Source of the DNA: an uncultured Eubacteriales bacterium
GTDB lineage: Bacteria; Bacillota; Clostridia; Christensenellales; Aristaeellaceae
Length of the DNA stretch: 57,641 bases
Reading direction: 5' to 3'
Assembly (NCBI GenBank): GCA_900318145.1
Contig: ONJM01000017.1
Location: 1-57,641, forward strand
Shown piece after piece: positions 21,953 to 31,300 of this stretch; position 1 is the stretch's first letter; each line of letters starts with the position of its first letter. Made by a program: the position numbers and the translations under genes. Under the pieces are notes generated by a model, which did no database searches, had not been told where the DNA came from, and saw only the letters and a list, made by a program, of their open reading frames with translations.

Positions 21953-23983
21953 ATGATTTTTGCTGTTGAAAAGAACGCACTGATTGCCCGGCGGGGCGGA
22001 GAGACGCTGCGGATTGAAGGATGGGGCAGGGACAGCCTTCGCGTCCGGGCCGTGATGTACGACGGATGGACCGGGAACGACTGGGCGCTGACGGAAGAAC
22101 CGGAAACGGCGGAATGCAGCATCCGAACCGGGACGGAGAAGAATCCGAACGGGGACGGGTCGTTCAGCGAGGTTCCCTGCGCGGAGATCGTGAACGGCCG
22201 GATCCGGGCTACCGTGAACTTTGCCGGCGTGATCAGCTTTTACCGGGACGGCGCTCTGATTCTGCGGGAATATTACCGCAGCTACGGCGGGACGCTGTCC
22301 GAAGGCAGCCGGTGCCTGAAGATTGTAAACCGGGAATGGAAGGGCAATATTGGCGGCAGCGAATATACGCTGACTGTGAAGTTCGACGCCAATGACGGGG
22401 AGAAAATTTTCGGCATGGGCCAGTACCAGCAGCCATGGCTGAATCTGAAGGGGAACATCCTGGAGCTGGCGCAGCGGAACAGCCAGATTTCCGTACCTTT
22501 CATGGTCAGCAGCCTCGGATACGGTCTGCTGTGGAATAATCCGGCGGTAGGGCACGCGGTTTTCGCGAACAACTACACTGAATGGACCGCAAAAAGTACG
22601 CGCCAGATGGATTACTGGATTACCGCAGCGGACGGTCCGAAGGAAATCCTGCGGAATTATACCGGCGTAACCGGACGGGCACCCATGTTTCCGGAAAGCC
22701 TGATGGGGCTGTGGCAGTGCAAGCTGCGCTACCGGACGCAGGAAGAAGTGCTGACGGTCGCGAGGCAGTACCGGAAGGAAGGCATAAAAATCGACCAGAT
22801 CGTGATTGACTTTTTCCACTGGACGGTCCAGGGAGACTGGAAATTTGACAAAACCTACTGGCCGGATCCCAAGGCTATGGTGGACGAACTTCATTCAATG
22901 GGTATCCGGGTAATCGTTTCCGTGTGGCCGAGCGTGGACCGGAAGAGCGAGAACTTCGCGCCTATGATGGAACGCGGGCTGCTGATCCGCACGGAACGCG
23001 GCGCTGCCCAGACATACGATTACCAGGGCGACTGCGTGGAGATCGACCCCTTTAATCCGGAAACGCGGAAGTATATCTGGGAAGTGTGCAAAAAGAACTA
23101 TTACGATTACGGTATTGACGGATTCTGGCTGGACAATTCCGAACCGGATTACGGCGTTTACGATTTCGAAAACTACCGTTACTGCGCGGGACCTGCCCTG
23201 AGCTGCAGCAACATGTATCCGCAGCTGTTCTCCCGGGCTTTCTTTGAACCCATGCAAGCGGAGAAGGGAGCGGACACGGTGAACCTGCTTCGGTGCGGAT
23301 GGGCCGGCAGCCAGAAGTACGGCAACGTGATCTGGTCCGGGGATGTTCCCAGCACTTTCCAGGCACTGCGGGAACAGCTGCAAGCTGGGCTGAATATGGG
23401 CCTGGCCGGGATTCCCTGGTGGACGACGGATATCGGGGGATTCATGACGGATGACGTGAATGATCCTGATTTCCGGCAGCTGCTGATCCGGTGGTATCAG
23501 TTCGCGGTATATTCCGCCGTGCTGCGGATGCACGGAGACAGGGGCCCGTACAATATTCCCCCGCTGGATGACCGGGACTGGGGCGGCGGATATCTGCATA
23601 CCGGCCAGCCGAACGAGCTGTGGAGCTACGGCGAAGAAAACTACGAAATCATGCGGAAGTACTACGACGTCCGGATCGCAATGCACAGCTATATCCGGGA
23701 TCTGTACAGGGACGCCCACGAGACAGGGGCACCGCTGATCCGGACAATGTTCTTCGAGTTCCCGGAGGATGCAAAATGCTGGGAGCTGCAGGATCAGTAT
23801 ATGTTCGGGGAAAAGTACCTGGTAGCACCGATCCTGCACCTGAACGAATTCGCACGGGAAGTATACCTGCCGGCAGGACAATGGCGGAACGTGAACAGCG
23901 GCGAAATCCTGGAAGGCGGCCGTATAGTATCCGTACAGGCACCGATTGAGGAGATTCCCGTGTTTGAACGGATGACAGAATAA
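21953..23983 (+). CDS. Glycoside hydrolase family 31 alpha-glycosidase (alpha-xylosidase/alpha-glucosidase)
   Basis: This is a 676-residue cytoplasmic enzyme without a signal peptide. A galactose-mutarotase-like N-terminal domain (about 1-240) precedes the GH31 barrel. The nucleophile is D394 in DGFWLDNSEPD and the acid/base is D464 in IWSGDVPST. PESLMGLWQCKLRY and IDQIVIDFFHW are barrel-strand markers. The NSEPD form and overall pattern resemble YicI-type alpha-xylosidases, but neighbouring glgB would equally fit alpha-glucan use, so substrate is open. AAAGGAGA lies 8 bases before the ATG. It is the last gene of its operon, before the hairpin at 24004. Confidence 0.9.
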   Translation: MIFAVEKNALIARRGGETLRIEGWGRDSLRVRAVMYDGWTGNDWALTEEPETAECSIRTGTEKNPNGDGSFSEVPCAEIVNGRIRATVNFAGVISFYRDGALILREYYRSYGGTLSEGSRCLKIVNREWKGNIGGSEYTLTVKFDANDGEKIFGMGQYQQPWLNLKGNILELAQRNSQISVPFMVSSLGYGLLWNNPAVGHAVFANNYTEWTAKSTRQMDYWITAADGPKEILRNYTGVTGRAPMFPESLMGLWQCKLRYRTQEEVLTVARQYRKEGIKIDQIVIDFFHWTVQGDWKFDKTYWPDPKAMVDELHSMGIRVIVSVWPSVDRKSENFAPMMERGLLIRTERGAAQTYDYQGDCVEIDPFNPETRKYIWEVCKKNYYDYGIDGFWLDNSEPDYGVYDFENYRYCAGPALSCSNMYPQLFSRAFFEPMQAEKGADTVNLLRCGWAGSQKYGNVIWSGDVPSTFQALREQLQAGLNMGLAGIPWWTTDIGGFMTDDVNDPDFRQLLIRWYQFAVYSAVLRMHGDRGPYNIPPLDDRDWGGGYLHTGQPNELWSYGEENYEIMRKYYDVRIAMHSYIRDLYRDAHETGAPLIRTMFFEFPEDAKCWELQDQYMFGEKYLVAPILHLNEFAREVYLPAGQWRNVNSGEILEGGRIVSVQAPIEEIPVFERMTE

Positions 23984-24003
23984 AAACAGAATATAGAAAA
24001 CAG

Positions 24004-24037
24004 ATCAACCAGACCCTGCGCAGGCCTGGTTGATTTA
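24004..24037 (+). terminator. Hairpin between the GH31 and TIR genes
   Basis: A perfect 9-bp stem (24004-24012 with 24026-24034) encloses a smaller CCTG/CAGG stem. Only a short T-rich stretch follows, so some read-through into the TIR genes is likely. No separate promoter for the TIR genes was found in the 83-base gap. Confidence 0.6.
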
Positions 24038-24066
24038 GTAAAAGACAGAAACCGCTGGAGAAGAAA

Positions 24067-27000
24067 ATGGGGAAGTATATCGCGTTTATCAGCTACCGGC
24101 ATATGGAGCGGGATCAGAAGCTGTCCATGCTGCTGCGGAAGAAGCTGGAAGGATGGCATCTGCCCAAAGGAAGCAACCTGCCAAAGAAAAGGCGGGTTTT
24201 CCGGGATACGGATGAACTGCCCACCAGCGCGAACCTCGGGGACGATATTGAGAACGCCCTGCAGGACAGCGGCTGGCTGATCGCACTGTGTTCAGAAGAG
24301 TATACCGAATCCCTGTGGTGCCGGCGGGAAATTGCCAAGTACATTGAGATGGGCCGGAAGGACCGGATTCTTCCTGTACTGGTCAGCGGTGAACCGGAAA
24401 GGGCAGTTCCGGAAGAGATCCGGGATCTGGAACCTGCAGCTGATCTTCGGGGGAGGACCGGACGGGAAATCCGCTCTGCCGCGGATGAATGCGCAGCCGC
24501 ACTGCTGGGACGGATGGCCGGGAAACCATCGGAAACATTTGCTGCTTCCGAACGGCGGAGCAGGGTGCTGTTCCGCGGCGGAACGGCCGCAGCGGCCTGC
24601 GCGGTGCTGCTGGGACTGACATTTTACGCCGGGCGGACAGCGGAAATGACCGAAAAGAAAAACCAGGAGATTGCCGCCGCTACCGCGGAGGCGGAGGCAG
24701 CGAGGGAAATTGCGGAAGAAGAACTGCGGCAGGCATATCTCGCGAACAGTGACTATATTGCCGTGCAGGCAGGTCAGGCCATGAAGGCGGGAGATGACCG
24801 GAAAGCAATCCAGCTGGCGCTTTCCGCGCTGCCGGAGGATCTGCATGGAGAACTGCCGGTATCTGAGGAAGCGGTCAGTATCCTGCGGATGGCGGTCAAC
24901 AGGCCGGCTTATCTCGCAAACGGCGATTACCGCCTTTCCGACAGCATTGAGACGGATTTCCGGATTACGGGATATATTGCCGGATTCAACGAAGGCGACC
25001 TGGTGTTGCTGATTGAGGATTACTACGCGAAGCAGAAATATCTCCAGCTGGCAGGAGGGAAAATCACGGACGTGGCGAGCGCCGCCCGGCAAGCCGCTGT
25101 TGAAAACGGTTACAGCATCGGGTACGTGGTGAATAACCAGCCGAGCTGCGATTATGTTTTCTGCGGGCCGGAAAAGCCCCTGACATGGAAATGGAGCAAC
25201 GGGACAAAACCTGTCAGCGAGAATCAGGTTACGCTGAACGGCACCCCTTTCTATGCCGACCATATAAAAGAAATCGGGACAACCGGCGGGCTTATTCTTG
25301 CCTGGCAGGAACAGCCCCGGAAAGAAACGGAAGCGCGGACAGCCATTATCCGGCTTGGGAAAACAGAGGCTGTGGCGGAGCTGGAAATCGCCGGCTGGCC
25401 GGTTACTGCGGACTGTTCCTATGAACAGAACAGCGTGTTTCACAGCGAGTATATCGCAATTGTGGACCGGGAAGGCACTCTCTCCGTCTTTGAATGCGAG
25501 ACCGGCAGAAAAACCGTCACGATTCCCGGAAAATGGTCCGGAGCAATGTATCCAAAAGCTAGCCGGGAACTGTGCGCCATCGATGAAAACGGGGCAGCTT
25601 TCCTGATTGATACGGCTTCCTGCAGGAAAACCGCCGCTTTCGAATCACCGTCCCCGATTCTGGAGATGCAATACCGCAGCAGGGCTGACCTGTATCTTGC
25701 CCGGTGCACGGACGGGGTGCGGATTTACGGCGGAGACTGTGAGCTTAAGTCATACTTTCCCACAGAGGAGACGTCTTTATTCGTCGTGTGGGACGGATAC
25801 GATACCAAATACTGGGACCATTCAGGAAAGAAGTTCTTAATTCTGTATGACCGGCGGGTGGATGTTTACGAGACGGACACAAACATGGATCCGGAGTTGA
25901 GCGATATCCTGCTGGACTGCACAGGCGAGTTCCGGGCAATCTATTCACCGGACAGCAGATACCTTTATCTGATGGACGGCAGTGCGCCTTCCTCTGACGT
26001 TTCCGCTTCAGTATACGAAAAGCATCTGACCAGTATGCGGAAGCTGGACGCGGAAACCGGCGCGGAAATCTGGAAAAAGGAAGGCATGCCGAACAATATC
26101 GCCAACGGTATCACGCGGGACGGCAAAACGCTCTGGCGACTGACCCGCCGCGGAATGACAGTCATTGACGCGGAAACCGGAGAAATGCGCTGGGAATCAT
26201 CCTGGTATGAAGCCGGCAATTATGATATCTTTACGGAACCTCCGGATGGGAAAAATATCGCTTTTATCATAAACAGGACGAACGGCAAAGTGGAACAGGA
26301 AGGGATTATTTTCACATTTGACCTTCAGACCGGCGAACTGCTGTGGACGCGGGAAAACGTCGGCGTCGGATACTGGAACGCGGACGGAACAAAGATCTGC
26401 TGTATCCGGCATGACGAAGACAGAGATGCGGGTATTGTCCGCATATATTATATGCAGCTGGACCCGGAAGACGGAACGGTGCTGAATGAGCATTACCTTC
26501 CGACCGAACTCGTGTACAACTACAGGTACCGGAGAGAACAGGTGTCGACAGAAAAAGACCGGATTCTCCTGAGCGTGAATTCTGCGCACGGAGAACCGTT
26601 CCACACGAAGATCGAGTGCTATTCGCTTTCCGACGGGGAAAAGATACAAACCTGGGAGCTGGATGAAGTCTGCGACCCGATTTTTTCCTGTACCGGAGAG
26701 ATTACTGCACGGTGGACCGCATGGGAGGACGATACGGATTACTGCTGCGTGCTTCCGGAGGAAGGCGGAACCGGACCGGCGGTTCCGACAGACAGCGAGG
26801 CGGGACGATGGATGACAACCACGCTGAAAAAGAACAACCGTTGGGAAAGCATCCATCCCCTGAACGCATCTGAATACGTCCTTTTCAACGGGGAGGAAGC
26901 CGCACGGAACGACTATAATTTTGAGGATACGGACACAACAACCATTGTACGTATATCGGACGGCGCCGTGCTGTTGAATATGGGCTATTCTCCGGAGGAC

Positions 27001-27147
27001 AAGACGTCAGAGGTGACCGTTGCACCGGACGGAAGCAGCCTGTGCATTATCGGGTACAAGGAATCCCGGATCATCCGCCTTACGGATACGGATACACTGG
27101 TCCGGAAGGCCCGGCAAAGAATAGCAAAGGAGGCGGAGAACAAATGA
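24067..27147 (+). CDS. TIR-domain membrane protein with a large propeller-like C-terminal region
   Basis: Of 1,026 residues, the first 150 form a TIR domain: YIAFISYRHME (strand A), VFRDTDELP (BB loop), LIALCSEEYTESLWCRREI and RILPVLVSG. E88 in WCRREI is in the position of the catalytic Glu of NAD-cleaving TIR enzymes such as SARM1 and plant TIRs. One transmembrane helix (about 168-190) and a Glu/Ala-rich coiled coil (about 195-225) follow. The last 750 residues have WD40/PQQ-like strands (AIDENGAAFLID, DAETGAEIWKKEG, DAETGEMRWES, DLQTGELLWTRE), suggesting a beta-propeller. Topology would put TIR inside and the propeller outside. It overlaps the next gene by ATGA. Confidence 0.85.
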   Translation: MGKYIAFISYRHMERDQKLSMLLRKKLEGWHLPKGSNLPKKRRVFRDTDELPTSANLGDDIENALQDSGWLIALCSEEYTESLWCRREIAKYIEMGRKDRILPVLVSGEPERAVPEEIRDLEPAADLRGRTGREIRSAADECAAALLGRMAGKPSETFAASERRSRVLFRGGTAAAACAVLLGLTFYAGRTAEMTEKKNQEIAAATAEAEAAREIAEEELRQAYLANSDYIAVQAGQAMKAGDDRKAIQLALSALPEDLHGELPVSEEAVSILRMAVNRPAYLANGDYRLSDSIETDFRITGYIAGFNEGDLVLLIEDYYAKQKYLQLAGGKITDVASAARQAAVENGYSIGYVVNNQPSCDYVFCGPEKPLTWKWSNGTKPVSENQVTLNGTPFYADHIKEIGTTGGLILAWQEQPRKETEARTAIIRLGKTEAVAELEIAGWPVTADCSYEQNSVFHSEYIAIVDREGTLSVFECETGRKTVTIPGKWSGAMYPKASRELCAIDENGAAFLIDTASCRKTAAFESPSPILEMQYRSRADLYLARCTDGVRIYGGDCELKSYFPTEETSLFVVWDGYDTKYWDHSGKKFLILYDRRVDVYETDTNMDPELSDILLDCTGEFRAIYSPDSRYLYLMDGSAPSSDVSASVYEKHLTSMRKLDAETGAEIWKKEGMPNNIANGITRDGKTLWRLTRRGMTVIDAETGEMRWESSWYEAGNYDIFTEPPDGKNIAFIINRTNGKVEQEGIIFTFDLQTGELLWTRENVGVGYWNADGTKICCIRHDEDRDAGIVRIYYMQLDPEDGTVLNEHYLPTELVYNYRYRREQVSTEKDRILLSVNSAHGEPFHTKIECYSLSDGEKIQTWELDEVCDPIFSCTGEITARWTAWEDDTDYCCVLPEEGGTGPAVPTDSEAGRWMTTTLKKNNRWESIHPLNASEYVLFNGEEAARNDYNFEDTDTTTIVRISDGAVLLNMGYSPEDKTSEVTVAPDGSSLCIIGYKESRIIRLTDTDTLVRKARQRIAKEAENK

Positions 27148-29114
27148 CACTGAACACAGAACGGATCCGGATCGCTGCTCCGCCTTCGCAGCAGCGGCTG
27201 GCGCAGGAACTGAAGACAACGCTTGCGGAGTACCGGATTCCGGTGAACGTGAAACGCGGAAAAGGGATTCAAAGCCTTTCCGAAATCCCGGATGACTGGC
27301 TGATTGTGATCTGCACCCCGGAAACGCCCGGTGATCCGGCAGTCCTTTCTGCGATTGACGATTTCCTGAAAGAAGGGGAACGGGACCGGATCCTGACGCT
27401 GCTGGCGGAGGGAACGCCGAAGAGCAGCTTCCCGGAAAACCTGCTGCGGGAAGTCAAGCCGGACGGAACCGTGATTGAGCATGAACCGCTGGCAGCAAAC
27501 ATTACGGCAGACGATCCCGGGAAATCCCTGAAGAAACTGCAGGTGGAAAAACTGCGGATCCTGGCGCCGATGCTTGGAACTTCCTTCGACGGCCTGATGA
27601 ACCGCAGCCGGAGAAGAAGGAACCGGATCCTGCTGGCAGCCAGTGCGGCCGTGTTCGTCGCTTTCGCTGTATTCCTGGGGCTGGCGGTTTCCCGGATGCG
27701 GCAGACCGCTGCGCAGGAAGCGGAACTGCAGCGGCAGTTTGAACAGAAGGAGGGAGAAAGGCAGAAAGCGGAAGAAGCGGCGCACCAAGCCAGGATCAGC
27801 CTGGGGGAAACAATCGCCCTGGAGGCCCGGGACGCGCTAGAAAGAAACAACACGGAACTGGCATTGCTGCTGTGCCTGGAATTTGAAAGGGAAATGCCTG
27901 AATCGGAGATTCTGCAGAAGACTTTTGCAGATGCGCTGAAAAGGCGGTGCGCTGCCGGGTACGTGCCCATAACCAGCGAGAAAAGCTACAAGCGCACAAG
28001 GGGAATGGACAAGGTACTGGTGGACGAAACCTACAGGGATCAGCAAAAACCCACGGCAGCAGCAGAAGAAAAACCAGCGCTGCCCGGTTCCTGCGATATT
28101 CCGGTTCCGGAATCAGCACCGGGGGATAAAACATGGATCAACAATGACGGACTGGCCTGGATGGGACTGCGGTGCTATTCCGTACAGCAGGACTGCGCCG
28201 TGTACAGGGGATCCCTGAAATATGACGAGCCGAATGAAAGAAAATACGCCCTGTGGATCCGGAGCATCGAAAACCCGGAGGAGGCATACTGGCTCCGGAA
28301 TCAGGACGGGACGCTGTTCACGAAGGACAATTTCATAGGCGCAGAATTCATCACAGACAGCATCCTGCTGATCTTCAGCGACCGGAAACCTTTCTGTTAC
28401 GATACCGCGGGCCGCGAATGGCTTTCCCTGCCGGGTACCGATACGGAACTGCCGTTTTCCGTTGAAAAGATTACGGATATCGGACTGCCGGACAAAGTGT
28501 TCGTCTTCGGGGAAAAAGCATTCGCGGTATACGAAAGGGAACCTTTCCGGTTGCTGTACGTTATTGACGACGAGGTAACGGAAAACGCGATTACAAAGGA
28601 CAATTCAGGAGATGTATGGGTGGGCGCCACGGCGGGAGCACTGCCGGACGGGGAGGAGAGAATCGTGATCGGCAACGGCCACGTTTACGACGCGAAGACC
28701 GGGGATTACCTGTTCAAATTCGGAGGTGAAAAAGCAAGGATCTTCGGATCGTCGGAATACGGAACCCATGAATTCAGCTCGGAAGGATGGCTGCCCGTGT
28801 TTATCGGAAAGGACTGCCATCTGATTGATATGAGGGACGGCAGTAACGCTGCCGTCATCGAAAACACAGGTGGCAGCCGATATATCCTGTACGGCCCGGA
28901 AGATGAGGAAACCGGACTCCGAAGTGCCTCCCTGATTCTGACGTACATTACTCAGGCCAGTGAGACTGAGAATAATCCCCGGATATTCTGGGAATACCAC
29001 GAAAACGCGACGGAAGTGCCGGACAATAACATGGAGCAGATTGCTCTGGCCAGGGAACTGCTGAACGGAAGGGAACTGGTTCCGTCCGAGCGGAGCAGAT
29101 ACCGTCTGGACTGA
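27144..29114 (+). CDS. Pseudo-TIR membrane protein, partner of the upstream TIR protein
   Basis: This 656-residue protein has the same plan: a reduced TIR-like domain (about 1-110), a transmembrane helix (about 162-183), a Gln/Glu-rich coiled coil (about 187-210) and a propeller-like region. Residues 58-87 align without gaps to 76-105 of the upstream protein (LIVICTPE against LIALCSEE; GERDRILTLL against GRKDRILPVL). The catalytic Glu is replaced by Ala (A70), and the BB loop/alpha-B region is about a dozen residues shorter. It should therefore lack NADase activity. The start overlaps the upstream stop as ATGA, with GGAGG just before it, so translation is coupled and a stoichiometric complex is likely (inference). 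Confidence 0.8.
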   Translation: MTLNTERIRIAAPPSQQRLAQELKTTLAEYRIPVNVKRGKGIQSLSEIPDDWLIVICTPETPGDPAVLSAIDDFLKEGERDRILTLLAEGTPKSSFPENLLREVKPDGTVIEHEPLAANITADDPGKSLKKLQVEKLRILAPMLGTSFDGLMNRSRRRRNRILLAASAAVFVAFAVFLGLAVSRMRQTAAQEAELQRQFEQKEGERQKAEEAAHQARISLGETIALEARDALERNNTELALLLCLEFEREMPESEILQKTFADALKRRCAAGYVPITSEKSYKRTRGMDKVLVDETYRDQQKPTAAAEEKPALPGSCDIPVPESAPGDKTWINNDGLAWMGLRCYSVQQDCAVYRGSLKYDEPNERKYALWIRSIENPEEAYWLRNQDGTLFTKDNFIGAEFITDSILLIFSDRKPFCYDTAGREWLSLPGTDTELPFSVEKITDIGLPDKVFVFGEKAFAVYEREPFRLLYVIDDEVTENAITKDNSGDVWVGATAGALPDGEERIVIGNGHVYDAKTGDYLFKFGGEKARIFGSSEYGTHEFSSEGWLPVFIGKDCHLIDMRDGSNAAVIENTGGSRYILYGPEDEETGLRSASLILTYITQASETENNPRIFWEYHENATEVPDNNMEQIALARELLNGRELVPSERSRYRLD

Positions 29115-29154
29115 ATTGCAACAGATTCCCAATAACATGGAGGAGGTACATGCA

Positions 29155-30480
29155 ATGAAGAAGTTTCTGTGTTTCATTCTGGCCGTGATGCTGCTGCTGT
29201 CAGCAGGAGCAGCGGGCGCCGAGAAATGGATCTGCCCGGACTGCGGGCAGGAAGGCAATTCCGGCAATTACTGCGAGACATGCGGCGCAGCAAGACTGGT
29301 ATCCGGGGCGTGGACCTGTCCGGGCTGCGGCCGGACGGGAAATACAGGAAATTTCTGCCCGGACTGCGGATCCGCACGGCCGGAAGCAGTGAAGACGAAG
29401 GGGCAAGGATCCGTGAACCCGAACCTTGAGCAGATCCCGGGAGAAACGGAGAAGGTTAAGGTACGCCTGATCAGTGTCGATGCTTCCGACTATATACGGA
29501 GCGGAGATAATCCGGCAAAATGGCAGCCCGGCAATGCTGCGGACGGAAATGAAACAACATGCTGGCAGTATACTGCCAAAGACGGCGCCTGGCTGGAGCT
29601 GGATACGGGCGTGCCGGCGGCTGTGGACGAAATCTGGTTCAAGAACGGCTTCTGGGCATATAACGACAAAGGAAAAGAACAGTACAGCCTGAACGCGCGC
29701 CTGAAAAAAATTTCCATCAAAATCCTGTATAACGGTGAAAGCAAATACAGGGATGCCCTGAGCGTGACGCTGAAGGATGAATGGGGTAGCGACTGGCAGC
29801 GGATTGAGCTGGGGCACCGGGAAGACGTGACAGCGGTCCGGATCGTGGTTCATTCCAGCTACGCCGGAAGCAGCTTTAAAAGAGACGTCTGCCTTTCCGA
29901 AGTGATGCTTGTGCAGTATGCTTCCGCGGAAAACGCTATGCCACCCCAGCCGGAGCAGACCGCAGTGGTCTATGAAAGCCGGCCGGACATTACCGGCTGC
30001 AGCCTGCTGGACAAGCTGGCCACGCGTTCCGGCCCGTCGGCGACCTATGCTGAACCGGGCACTTTCTTCTATAAAAACAACAGCTGGAAAAACCAGACGG
30101 TCCGGGTTCTGAAAAAAGCGAAAGGCAACGGGGTCTGGTGGGTCCAGGTGGATTTCCAGAACGGCAAAGGCGGCAAAAAATATCGTGTCTGGACCGGCGC
30201 AAAGCGGGTGGATGTGGACCTGGAAAAGTTGAGGGGGGAAATCCCCATCGGAGACTGTGATATCTATCCGACAAAGAATACATACTGGGGCCCCGGAAAA
30301 GAATACGCAGCTGCGAAGGTTGTGATCCGTGAAAACGCGGTCGGACAGCTTTACGCAATTGAAAACGGATATGCAGATGTGGAATACTTCTGTGACGACG
30401 GTACTTCCGGCCGTGTATGGGTTCCGCGGGAAGCTGTACACGGCATCGACACCAATAAAGACCGGTCCGGAGAAAACTGA
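29155..30480 (+). CDS. Secreted double zinc-ribbon, discoidin-like and SH3-like protein
   Basis: This 441-residue protein begins with a signal peptide (1-21, ending AGAAGAE). Two zinc ribbons follow within about 23-75 (CPDCGQEGNSGNYCETCG and CPGCGRTGNTGNFCPDCG). Next is a discoidin/galactose-binding-like domain (about 105-265, with the landmarks NAADGNETTCWQY and WLELDTG), resembling the NADase-type glycan-binding module of clostridial proteins. Two SH3-like segments complete it (about 285-350 ATRSGPSATYAEPG, and 360-430). Zinc ribbons behind a signal peptide are unusual. ATG 29155 is supported by GGAGGAGG 8 bases upstream. It lies 40 bases after the pseudo-TIR gene and is probably co-transcribed. 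Function unknown. Confidence 0.75.
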   Translation: MKKFLCFILAVMLLLSAGAAGAEKWICPDCGQEGNSGNYCETCGAARLVSGAWTCPGCGRTGNTGNFCPDCGSARPEAVKTKGQGSVNPNLEQIPGETEKVKVRLISVDASDYIRSGDNPAKWQPGNAADGNETTCWQYTAKDGAWLELDTGVPAAVDEIWFKNGFWAYNDKGKEQYSLNARLKKISIKILYNGESKYRDALSVTLKDEWGSDWQRIELGHREDVTAVRIVVHSSYAGSSFKRDVCLSEVMLVQYASAENAMPPQPEQTAVVYESRPDITGCSLLDKLATRSGPSATYAEPGTFFYKNNSWKNQTVRVLKKAKGNGVWWVQVDFQNGKGGKKYRVWTGAKRVDVDLEKLRGEIPIGDCDIYPTKNTYWGPGKEYAAAKVVIRENAVGQLYAIENGYADVEYFCDDGTSGRVWVPREAVHGIDTNKDRSGEN

Positions 30481-30546
30481 TCCCCCAAAGCTTCTTTTCA
30501 GGCCGCACCAAGGGTAAAAATCCTTGAAAACGTTGAAAAAAAAGGA

Positions 30547-30575
30547 TTGTCAAGCGCCGGAAAGTATGCTATACT
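30547..30575 (+). promoter_or_regulatory. SigmaA promoter of the rimP-ribF operon
   Basis: TTGTCA (30547-30552) and TATACT (30570-30575) are separated by 17 bases. The spacer and the -10 lie inside the inverted repeat at 30554-30584. Confidence 0.75.
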
Positions 30576-30584
30576 TTCCGGCGC
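30554..30584. repeat. Perfect 14-bp inverted repeat over the rimP operon promoter
   Basis: Arms 30554-30567 and 30571-30584 are exact reverse complements around a 3-base centre. The repeat covers the promoter spacer, the -10 box and the expected transcription start. No T-run follows on the plus strand. It could be an operator for a dimeric regulator, or a hairpin at the very 5' end of the transcript. Confidence 0.7.
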
Positions 30585-30637
30585 ATGGGTTTCCGTGCAA
30601 TTTATCGGCTTGATGCCTTGAAAGAAGGGTTTAACGT

Positions 30638-30735
30638 AAAGAGTGGAAAAAGCCTGAAGGCCTTGCGTACGTGGGGAAGCAGCATCCGGACCGCAGACGC
30701 ATCGGCTGAGGAAGGGCTTGTTTTCCGCTCTTTTT
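30638..30735 (+). promoter_or_regulatory. Structured 5' leader of the rimP operon, attenuator-like
   Basis: Bases 30638-30654 pair with 30715-30733 in a long stem: 13 consecutive pairs including a G-U, then four more after small bulges. The 3' arm runs into a five-T tract (30731-30735), as in a terminator, and about 60 bases lie between the arms. The rimP start is 26 bases further on. I cannot match it to a named riboswitch. Confidence 0.5.
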
Positions 30736-30760
30736 GATTGCCCGGAAAGCGTTGTGAAAG

Positions 30761-31300
30761 ATGGCAAATGCAGGAACAGACGCGATCGAAGCCAGGTGCG
30801 CGAAGATCGCTGAAGAAATGGGCTATGAACTGGTGGATGCCGGCGTTGAAAAAGAACCGACAGGAAAGTATCTTCGCTTCTACATCGACAAGCCGGAAGG
30901 AATTTCGCTGGATGACTGCGAGGCCTATCACAAGGCTGTGCGCAATATAGCGGACACAGTGGATTACGACTTTATGGAGGTTTCCTCTCCGGGAATCGAC
31001 CGGCCCCTGAAAAAAGACCGGGATTTTGAAAGAAACCTGGGCAGTGAAATCGAAGTCAAGCTGTTTAAACCGATGGACGGGACGAAACTGCTGACCGGCA
31101 TACTGGCCGGCCTGGAGAACGGAGAAATACTGCTGGAGACATCGACCGGGACGAAGCGGATTCCACGGAAGGCCGCCGCACTGGTGAAACCGGTGGTAGA
31201 CATGGAAGGCATCGAAGAAGTGGATCTCTCCGGGGAAGACCTTCCGGAAACGACAGAGAGCGAAAACACAGAAAGCGGGGAAACGAGTCATGAAGTCTGA
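30761..31300 (+). CDS. rimP: Ribosome maturation factor RimP
   Basis: RimP assists assembly of the 30S ribosomal subunit. The 179-residue protein has the N-terminal alpha/beta domain (YELVDAGVEKEPTGKYLRFYIDKPEGISLDDC) and the SSPGIDRPLKKDRDFERN signature at about 68-85, followed by the small beta-barrel domain. The C-terminal 20 residues are an acidic Ser/Thr/Glu tail beyond the usual length. It opens the operon and overlaps nusA by 11 bases. The ribosome binding site is weak (GAAAG next to the ATG), which fits control through the leader. Confidence 0.95.
   Translation: MANAGTDAIEARCAKIAEEMGYELVDAGVEKEPTGKYLRFYIDKPEGISLDDCEAYHKAVRNIADTVDYDFMEVSSPGIDRPLKKDRDFERNLGSEIEVKLFKPMDGTKLLTGILAGLENGEILLETSTGTKRIPRKAAALVKPVVDMEGIEEVDLSGEDLPETTESENTESGETSHEV

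Follow-up and report, generated by a model that had tools for sequence, protein, structure and literature searches.

Why a gene for an apparently active TIR protein should be followed so closely by one for a protein with a degenerate TIR-like domain is the question raised by contig ONJM01000017.1 of an uncultured Eubacteriales bacterium (assembly GCA_900318145.1), which is the entire contig C23 of its genome and whose 57,641 nucleotides are referred to here as the window. The initial annotation had read these two adjacent genes, named A and B in this study, as an active and an inactive TIR subunit assembling into an envelope-facing sensor that cleaves nicotinamide adenine dinucleotide (NAD+) or makes a cyclic ADP-ribose signal. 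The observation behind this claim is confirmed and its interpretation is partly supported; assembly, NAD cleavage and signalling are what we infer from the sequences. A/B is a predicted membrane pair found in some gut bacteria, and B's TIR, as its alignments indicate, is degenerate yet preserved.

Domain architecture of the two genes

Both proteins follow the plan proposed for them, namely a TIR-like domain, one membrane helix, a coiled coil and a propeller-like region, with which the profiles and helix calls agree (the coiled coils of A and B were judged by eye). Gene A matches Pfam TIR_2 with an E of 3e-11 and 44 bits (cut-off 28), and TIR, ThsB_TIR and PQQ_2 likewise exceed their cut-offs; both TIR_2 and TIR are present in all 11 A proteins scanned. 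The likeness to ThsB amounts to 26 bits in Pfam ThsB_TIR, against a cut-off of 21.2, and PADLOC gives A no ThsB model. The TIR profile of A matches L6, Cat1, TcpB and TLR TIRs in the PDB, where plant, bacterial and animal TIRs are found by the profiles of A and of solo TIRs. One joint alignment was made of 13 A proteins, 13 B proteins, 18 solo TIRs (single-gene TIR-membrane proteins of the same bacteria) and the TIRs and pseudo-TIRs of a second architecture described below. In this alignment 13/13 A proteins retain the catalytic residues W84 and E88, so that E88, which does lie in WCRRE as previously stated, is also conserved among orthologues; its absence from them had been named as a possible refutation. 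A carries the TIR active-site motifs in full.

No TIR model in Pfam, NCBIfam or PADLOC matched the window's B with an E of up to 1, and no TIR is among the nine Pfam families listed for 12 B proteins (E up to 0.1). Used alone, the B N-terminal profile, built from 12 proteins, finds no solved TIR in the PDB, the best match (E 0.06) being to a non-TIR. Compared with the 18 solo TIR-membrane proteins by hhalign, the same profile gives an E of 4e-47 over 154 columns, with one 22-residue gap, and compared with A's TIR an E of 5e-15; B's own propeller profile, used as a negative control, gives 0.27. This profile comparison suggests that the N-terminus of B derives from a TIR.

A single hydrophobic helix begins near residue 165 in A and B alike. 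There is more Lys and Arg on its N-terminal side in all 12 B proteins reaching that region, an excess that is smaller in A, where 2 of 12 proteins show a tie. The propeller of A contains PQQ_2 in 10 of the 11 proteins scanned, and its matches in the PDB are WD40, BamB and PQQ-enzyme chains. That of B matches the designed propeller Tako8 (E 1.5e-7 in the PDB) and, more weakly, WD40 proteins, and is related to the propeller of A with an hhalign E of 4e-7. Neither NB-ARC nor LRR domains were found in Pfam scans of A and B proteins, which carry propellers instead. The coordinates given for the genes and for the ATGA overlap between them (27144-27147) proved correct, and a ribosome-binding-like AAAGGAGG for B sits within the end of A, ahead of the B start.

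Losses and conservation in the TIR of gene B

The elements discussed here (betaB, BB loop, alphaB, betaE and others) take their names from the alignment and from what we take to be the TIR topology. The catalytic Trp is found in 0/13 B proteins, whereas it is present in 13/13 A proteins, 18/18 solo TIRs and 8/8 intact TIRs of the second architecture. The betaB/BB-loop/alphaB segment is 27 residues long in all 39 intact TIRs, but 5 in 12 of the 13 B proteins and 13 in the B of G448; the shortened BB-loop region initially described for the window's B (5 versus 27 residues) is therefore a real feature. The catalytic Glu is kept by 18/18 solo and 8/8 second-architecture TIRs. Alignment does place A70 of the window's B at this position, and of the Glu/Ala split whose conservation in each partner had been proposed as a check, Glu holds in 13/13 A proteins; the Ala half fails, as only 3 of the 13 B proteins (that of the window and two others) have Ala, with Glu in three (C31, RUG10998 and RGIG6984), Val in one, Lys in three and Arg in three. 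Since Glu has been lost in 10 of 13 B proteins and its replacements vary, a Glu-to-Ala substitution was rejected as the defining change of B. The constant losses are Trp, box 1 and the betaB/BB-loop/alphaB segment.

Mean pairwise identities, calculated over 11 A and 12 B proteins with the near-copy L087 excluded, are 0.86 for box 1, 0.89 for the BB loop and 0.30 for the propeller region in A, and 0.32 for box 1, 0.73 for betaC, 0.62 for betaD, 0.96 for HEPLAANI and 0.29 for the propeller region in B. The best-conserved pieces of the pair are the BB loop of A and the presumed betaE of B (HEPLAANI). For the close copies L086 and L087, the ratio of nonsynonymous to synonymous substitution rates (dN/dS) is 0.138 in the B pseudo-TIR and 0.331 in the rest of B, alongside 0.276 in A's TIR and 0.323 in the rest of A. 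The B genes of L085 and L091 give 0.139 over 248 N-terminal codons, at a dS of 1.6 that is near saturation. Internal stops are absent from all 13 B copies, two of which are cut by contig ends. The low dN/dS and the conserved elements indicate that B is a preserved pseudo-enzyme, with the sensor parts being the most divergent. As aligned, B is a TIR remnant that has lost the side of the nucleotide pocket (box 1, betaB, BB loop, alphaB, Trp and, in most copies, Glu) and has kept the betaC-betaD-betaE side.

Recurrence and linkage of the pair

The samples comprised 100 genomes including the window's own (queried with B and A), 396 genomes of the order, 300 of the family for each query, 391 of the class, and a scan of named genomes. 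In total, 13 A and 13 B genes were found. Twelve loci, in eight genomes, have both: three in the window's genome (the window, C36 and C31), three in RGIG2447, and one each in RUG10998 (a member of the window's genus), Tb.RUG.137, RUG13544, RUG11878, RGIG6984 and the family member G448. The kinship with RUG10998 puts the window among Clostridia of the rumen or gut. A and B adjoin in 12/12 loci that are readable on both sides, and no full-length homologue of either without its partner was found among these; such a homologue was what the initial annotation had named as a possible refutation. Contig ends cut A in Tb.RUG.137 (L085) and B in RGIG6984 (L092), and the remaining B (RGIG2707, L091) and A (G030, L071) run into contig ends before any partner position. 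The B of L085 was considered as an orphan and rejected as such, as A begins 13 nucleotides after it.

At least six genomes of the family sample contain A, whether whole or as long pieces, and the same six contain B, one B being cut by a contig end; few candidates were scored per genome, so these counts are lower bounds. No full-length B was found outside the family in the order and class samples. Within the genus, the pair was found in 2 of 45 genomes, with a cut A in a third. Relatives of B were found in no phages or viral contigs, and there were two plasmid matches, of 30% identity over 20% of B.

A comes first in 11 of the 12 loci and B in L085. Spacing between the two ranges from -17 to +13 nucleotides, with a 4-nucleotide overlap in 7 of 12; for C31 this overlap assumes an ATG at L067:6319, the first start of the frame giving 22 nucleotides.

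A second architecture and solo TIR proteins

At eight loci (L081, L124, L125 and L230-L234), which were chosen by eye from match lists and are not a full count, a gene for a pseudo-TIR membrane protein of 281-447 amino acids lies directly before an intact TIR gene on the same strand. Trp is kept in 0/8 of these pseudo-TIRs, as is Glu, and the intact partners have both in 8/8, two having been read from partial genes. Tetratricopeptide repeats (TPRs) are present in all four intact partners scanned. Amongst the four pseudo-TIR proteins scanned, TIR_2 appears below the cut-off in L124 and L125, and PDZ above it in L230 and below it in L231; the C-terminus of the pseudo-TIR proteins is either short or PDZ-like. 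The profile of these pseudo-TIRs matches that of B with an E of 1e-23. That the labour is divided in the same way here, alongside different sensors, is the best indication that the dead TIR is functional.

The pairs of L081, L124 and L125 lie directly behind, or overlap, a large gene whose product appears by eye to be secreted. At L234:1832-3753, the gene for the intact-TIR partner in G789 is split into two frames, which is either an assembly error or a real frameshift.

The solo TIR loci whose neighbours were read by eye have an intact TIR and no pseudo-TIR partner. At L074:7953-14188 and L246:2264-5949, solo TIR membrane proteins are near a two-gene set encoding an HD-like protein (below the Pfam cut-off) and a SLOG-DUF4231 protein (SLOG as YAcAr, below the cut-off), an arrangement that hints at a nucleotide signal acting on an effector in the membrane. 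As a shared effector, the SLOG-DUF4231 protein was considered and not retained: it is present in 7 of 45 genus genomes, 5 of these 7 having such a TIR protein versus 19 of 45 overall, which is no clear link.

Evolutionary history

In a tree of 56 sequences, from which the B of RGIG6984 was excluded as too short, A, B and both groups of the second architecture each form one clade (support 100/99). Distances between A proteins and between B proteins correlate, with an r of 0.93 over 9 of the 12 pairs that was reached by 1 of 20000 permutations; the near-copy L087 and the incomplete L085 and L092 were left out. Removing the outlier L194 gives an r of 0.90 (11 of 20000 permutations). Approximately unbiased (AU) tests rejected as a clade neither B with the second pseudo-TIRs (p 0.19), nor A with B (p 0.40), nor A with the second intact TIRs (p 0.26). 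An origin of B as a duplicate of A was not adopted because its TIR is closer to the solo TIRs, yet the AU test leaves an A and B clade standing.

Proposed mechanism and alternatives

In the available parts of the sources, the BE interface is reported to be required for NADase activity (PMC8635717), alphaC, alphaB, betaA and the AA and BB loops form the lining of the pocket in SARM1 (PMC7075850), and in TIR-STING replacement of the BB loop abolishes NADase activity and a residue of the opposite TIR completes the site (PMC9402430). Since the pocket side is missing or scrambled in B while A has both sides, and since conservation is highest in the BB loop of A and the presumed betaE of B, a directional A-to-B contact is favoured. 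B could receive the BB loop of A and could not dock in that way onto another TIR, and may thereby act as a polar cap, controlling the timing of A's activity and putting an end to open-ended assembly. The N-termini would be cytoplasmic and the propellers outside, where they would sense a variable ligand, perhaps phage or envelope damage, and the output would be cleavage or cyclisation of NAD+ by A alone.

The interpretation preferred here is that A and B assemble into a hetero-oligomeric receptor, each crossing the membrane once, in which B is a dead TIR partner gating the presumed NADase of A, and on present evidence we hold the chances of its being right and wrong to be about equal. The sequence would fit B as the switch that turns A on, and equally as the part that holds A off. 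A broader proposal, which we regard as tentative and put at somewhat below an even chance, is that such pairs represent a general class of membrane-bound immune receptors in bacteria, in which an enzyme TIR has an obligate pseudo-enzyme TIR, a ligand outside the cell is recognised by the two propellers together, and the active site is both completed and restricted by the dead TIR acting as a polar cap. The class would recur with TPR and some PDZ-like sensors, and the pseudo-TIRs of the two architectures may share one origin, which the AU test did not reject.

Several observations weigh against the gated receptor. The Glu retained at the aligned position by three B proteins is one, and another is that the EPL of HEPLAANI is invariant in 18/18 solo TIRs as well, so that conservation of the B motif is partly inherited. 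The N-inside charge bias is weak in A, as its ties indicate, and the propeller of B is weakly supported, with a WD40 family found in Pfam for just 2 of 12 B proteins. When the comparison is restricted to the first 150 residues, without L194, the A-B distance correlation falls to an r of 0.56 (53 of 20000 permutations), and this correlation could stem from linkage alone.

The alternative that survives best is that B is chiefly a brake, a dead TIR that keeps the TIR of A inactive in a heterodimer, in the manner of an antitoxin, until a ligand or the loss of B frees it. Strict adjacency and the loss of the pocket in B fit an inhibitor as well as they do an activator, and the intact TIRs of the solo loci read by eye have no such partner beside them. 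However, the A-then-B order of all loci other than L085 differs from that in most toxin-antitoxin operons, and the large, variable propeller region of B would be superfluous for a plain inhibitor, which leaves this explanation unlikely in our judgement, if a serious competitor. We consider it improbable that A and B are independent receptors sharing an operon, with the TIR remnant of B merely anchoring or folding its receptor or recruiting another protein. The weak relationship between the two propellers would suit such independence, but the 12/12 adjacency and the correlated distances do not, nor does the repetition of the dead/intact pairing in a second, differently built set of pairs. That B is a paralogue of A decaying into a pseudogene would account for its lost active site and for the five different residues at the Glu position, but is highly improbable with no stop in 13 copies, a dN/dS of 0.14 in the pseudo-TIR of one close pair, a near-invariant HEPLAANI, and a TIR that is nearer to the solo TIRs than to that of A.

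Genomic context of the window

The features of the pair and the gene behind it are listed in Table 1.

Table 1. Positions of genes A and B, their elements, and the following gene in the window.
Feature	Position	Strand	Basis and remarks
Gene A, intact TIR - membrane helix - coiled coil - propeller protein, 1026 aa	24067..27147	+	ORF (open reading frame) and profile scans
A TIR domain, aa 1-150	24067..24516	+	Pfam TIR_2, TIR, ThsB_TIR; PDB profile matches
A betaB - BB loop - alphaB segment, aa 42-68	24190..24270	+	alignment; absent from B
A WCRRE with W84 and E88	24316..24330	+	kept in 13/13 A; aligned to WCLME of L6
A membrane helix, aa 166-188	24562..24630	+	hydrophobicity
A propeller region, aa 256-1026	24832..27144	+	PQQ_2; PDB profile matches
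Gene B, pseudo-TIR - membrane helix - coiled coil - propeller protein, 656 aa	27144..29114	+	ORF scan
ATGA, overlap of B start and A stop	27144..27147	+	sequence
B predicted pseudo-TIR domain, aa 1-150	27144..27593	+	hhalign to solo TIRs and A's TIR
B site of the 22-residue betaB/BB loop/alphaB deletion	27279..27299	+	alignment
B AVLSA replacing WxxxE, A70 at the Glu position	27339..27353	+	alignment
B HEPLAANI (presumed betaE)	27480..27503	+	alignment; mean pairwise identity 0.96 in 12 B
B membrane helix, aa 160-183	27621..27692	+	hydrophobicity
B propeller region, aa 246-656	27879..29111	+	PDB and A propeller profile matches
F5/8-type-C (NADase_transloc) protein, secreted (by eye)	29155..30480	+	Pfam; same insertion, outside the conserved pair

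In the window, the neighbours of the pair are GH31 and the F5/8-type-C (F5/8C) protein, both assigned by Pfam, and then rimP and nusA, both named by eye. The GH31-rimP junction (window 23983-30761) was compared with that of six relatives (L267-L272). In four of these (G013, G011, G034 and G041), GH31 is followed directly by rimP-nusA-ylxR-infB, as named by eye; the window has A, B and the gene for the F5/8C protein between the two. The junction of G012 holds other genes (by eye, a glycosidase and a transporter), and in G044 rimP-nusA does not lie behind GH31. The junction being empty or differently filled in relatives, the A/B pair is taken to be an accessory insertion at a variable site.

The F5/8C protein directly behind the pair has a zinc ribbon, judged by eye, and belongs to the Pfam NADase_transloc family; matches to it, many of them partial, are present in 42 of 45 genus genomes. 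As a third component of the system its gene was rejected, not being seen by eye in the lists of open reading frames around other pairs. Upstream of rimP-nusA, at 30554-30584, there is a 31-nucleotide palindrome, GCGCCGGAAAGTATG-C-TATACTTTCCGGCGC, with close copies in L269, L270 and L272 and a copy in L268 in which changes in one arm are matched in the other. The palindrome is a candidate operator or RNA hairpin.

Comparison with known systems

To our knowledge, the known Thoeris, SPARTA and TIR-STING proteins are soluble. No bacterial pair joining an intact with a degenerate TIR at the membrane was found in the open-licence literature searched. The initial statement that no two-component system of this kind was known to have been described was too strong, given what the accessible text of two papers describes for staphylococcal Thoeris (PMC12578639) and plant receptor pairs (PMC7282519). 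A/B resembles known paired-TIR logic, what appears to be new being the membrane-anchored intact/degenerate pair. If the preferred interpretation is correct, envelope-facing paired receptors would be added to bacterial TIR biology.

In the ThsA-ThsB1-ThsB2 system of Staphylococcus, as is proposed for A/B, two TIR proteins cooperate and the catalytic residues of only one are required. The capsid protein is bound by ThsB1, which then recruits ThsB2, the one whose catalytic residues are needed, according to the portions of the report available (PMC12578639). Unlike in A/B, a putative catalytic Glu is present in both of these TIRs, and those portions do not describe either as membrane-bound. The operon also includes the effector ThsA, whereas no ThsA-type effector lies beside A/B among the neighbours in the window. 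In the NADases SARM1 and TIR-STING, active assemblies use inter-subunit BB-loop contacts, as the available text describes them (PMC8635717; PMC9402430), but these are homo-oligomers in which every subunit is catalytic. If the cap idea is true, a dedicated subunit can end TIR assembly, giving a small, defined complex as opposed to the open filament of the TIR-STING type.

The solo proteins with a TIR, a membrane helix and a C-terminal sensor, from the same bacteria, share the plan of A/B through the TIR, helix and coil and are relatives of B's TIR; unlike A/B, they are encoded by single genes and have the catalytic Trp and Glu in 18/18. In the Toll-like and IL-1 receptors of animals, the TIR is a cytoplasmic tail and a scaffold. 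These receptors too are single-pass membrane proteins with a TIR, some of them heterodimeric in the accounts available (PMC8635717; PMC7075850), but the TIR of A and B is N-terminal and in A the NADase residues are present, so the likeness is one of design alone.

A parallel in pairing is offered by the plant receptors RPS4 and RRS1. In the text available, those plant TIRs that are without the Glu, a minority, seem to be part of sensor-type receptors whose genes are paired with that of a signalling partner, and the RRS1 TIR is one of them (PMC7282519); RPS4 and RRS1 are likewise genomically paired, the catalytic Glu being present in one TIR and absent from the other, and their TIRs heterodimerise (PMC7282519; PMC8635717). 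The same trait, adjacent receptor genes with one lacking catalytic machinery, was found at 12/12 A/B loci, with Trp lost in 13/13 and Glu in 10/13 B proteins. Should the gated receptor prove true, the pair would offer a simple bacterial model for a question of plant immunity, namely the role of a non-catalytic TIR for its active partner. RPS4 and RRS1 are, however, cytoplasmic NB-LRR proteins, whereas A and B are predicted to cross the membrane once and to carry propellers, and in the bacterial pair the dead TIR is also without its BB-loop segment.

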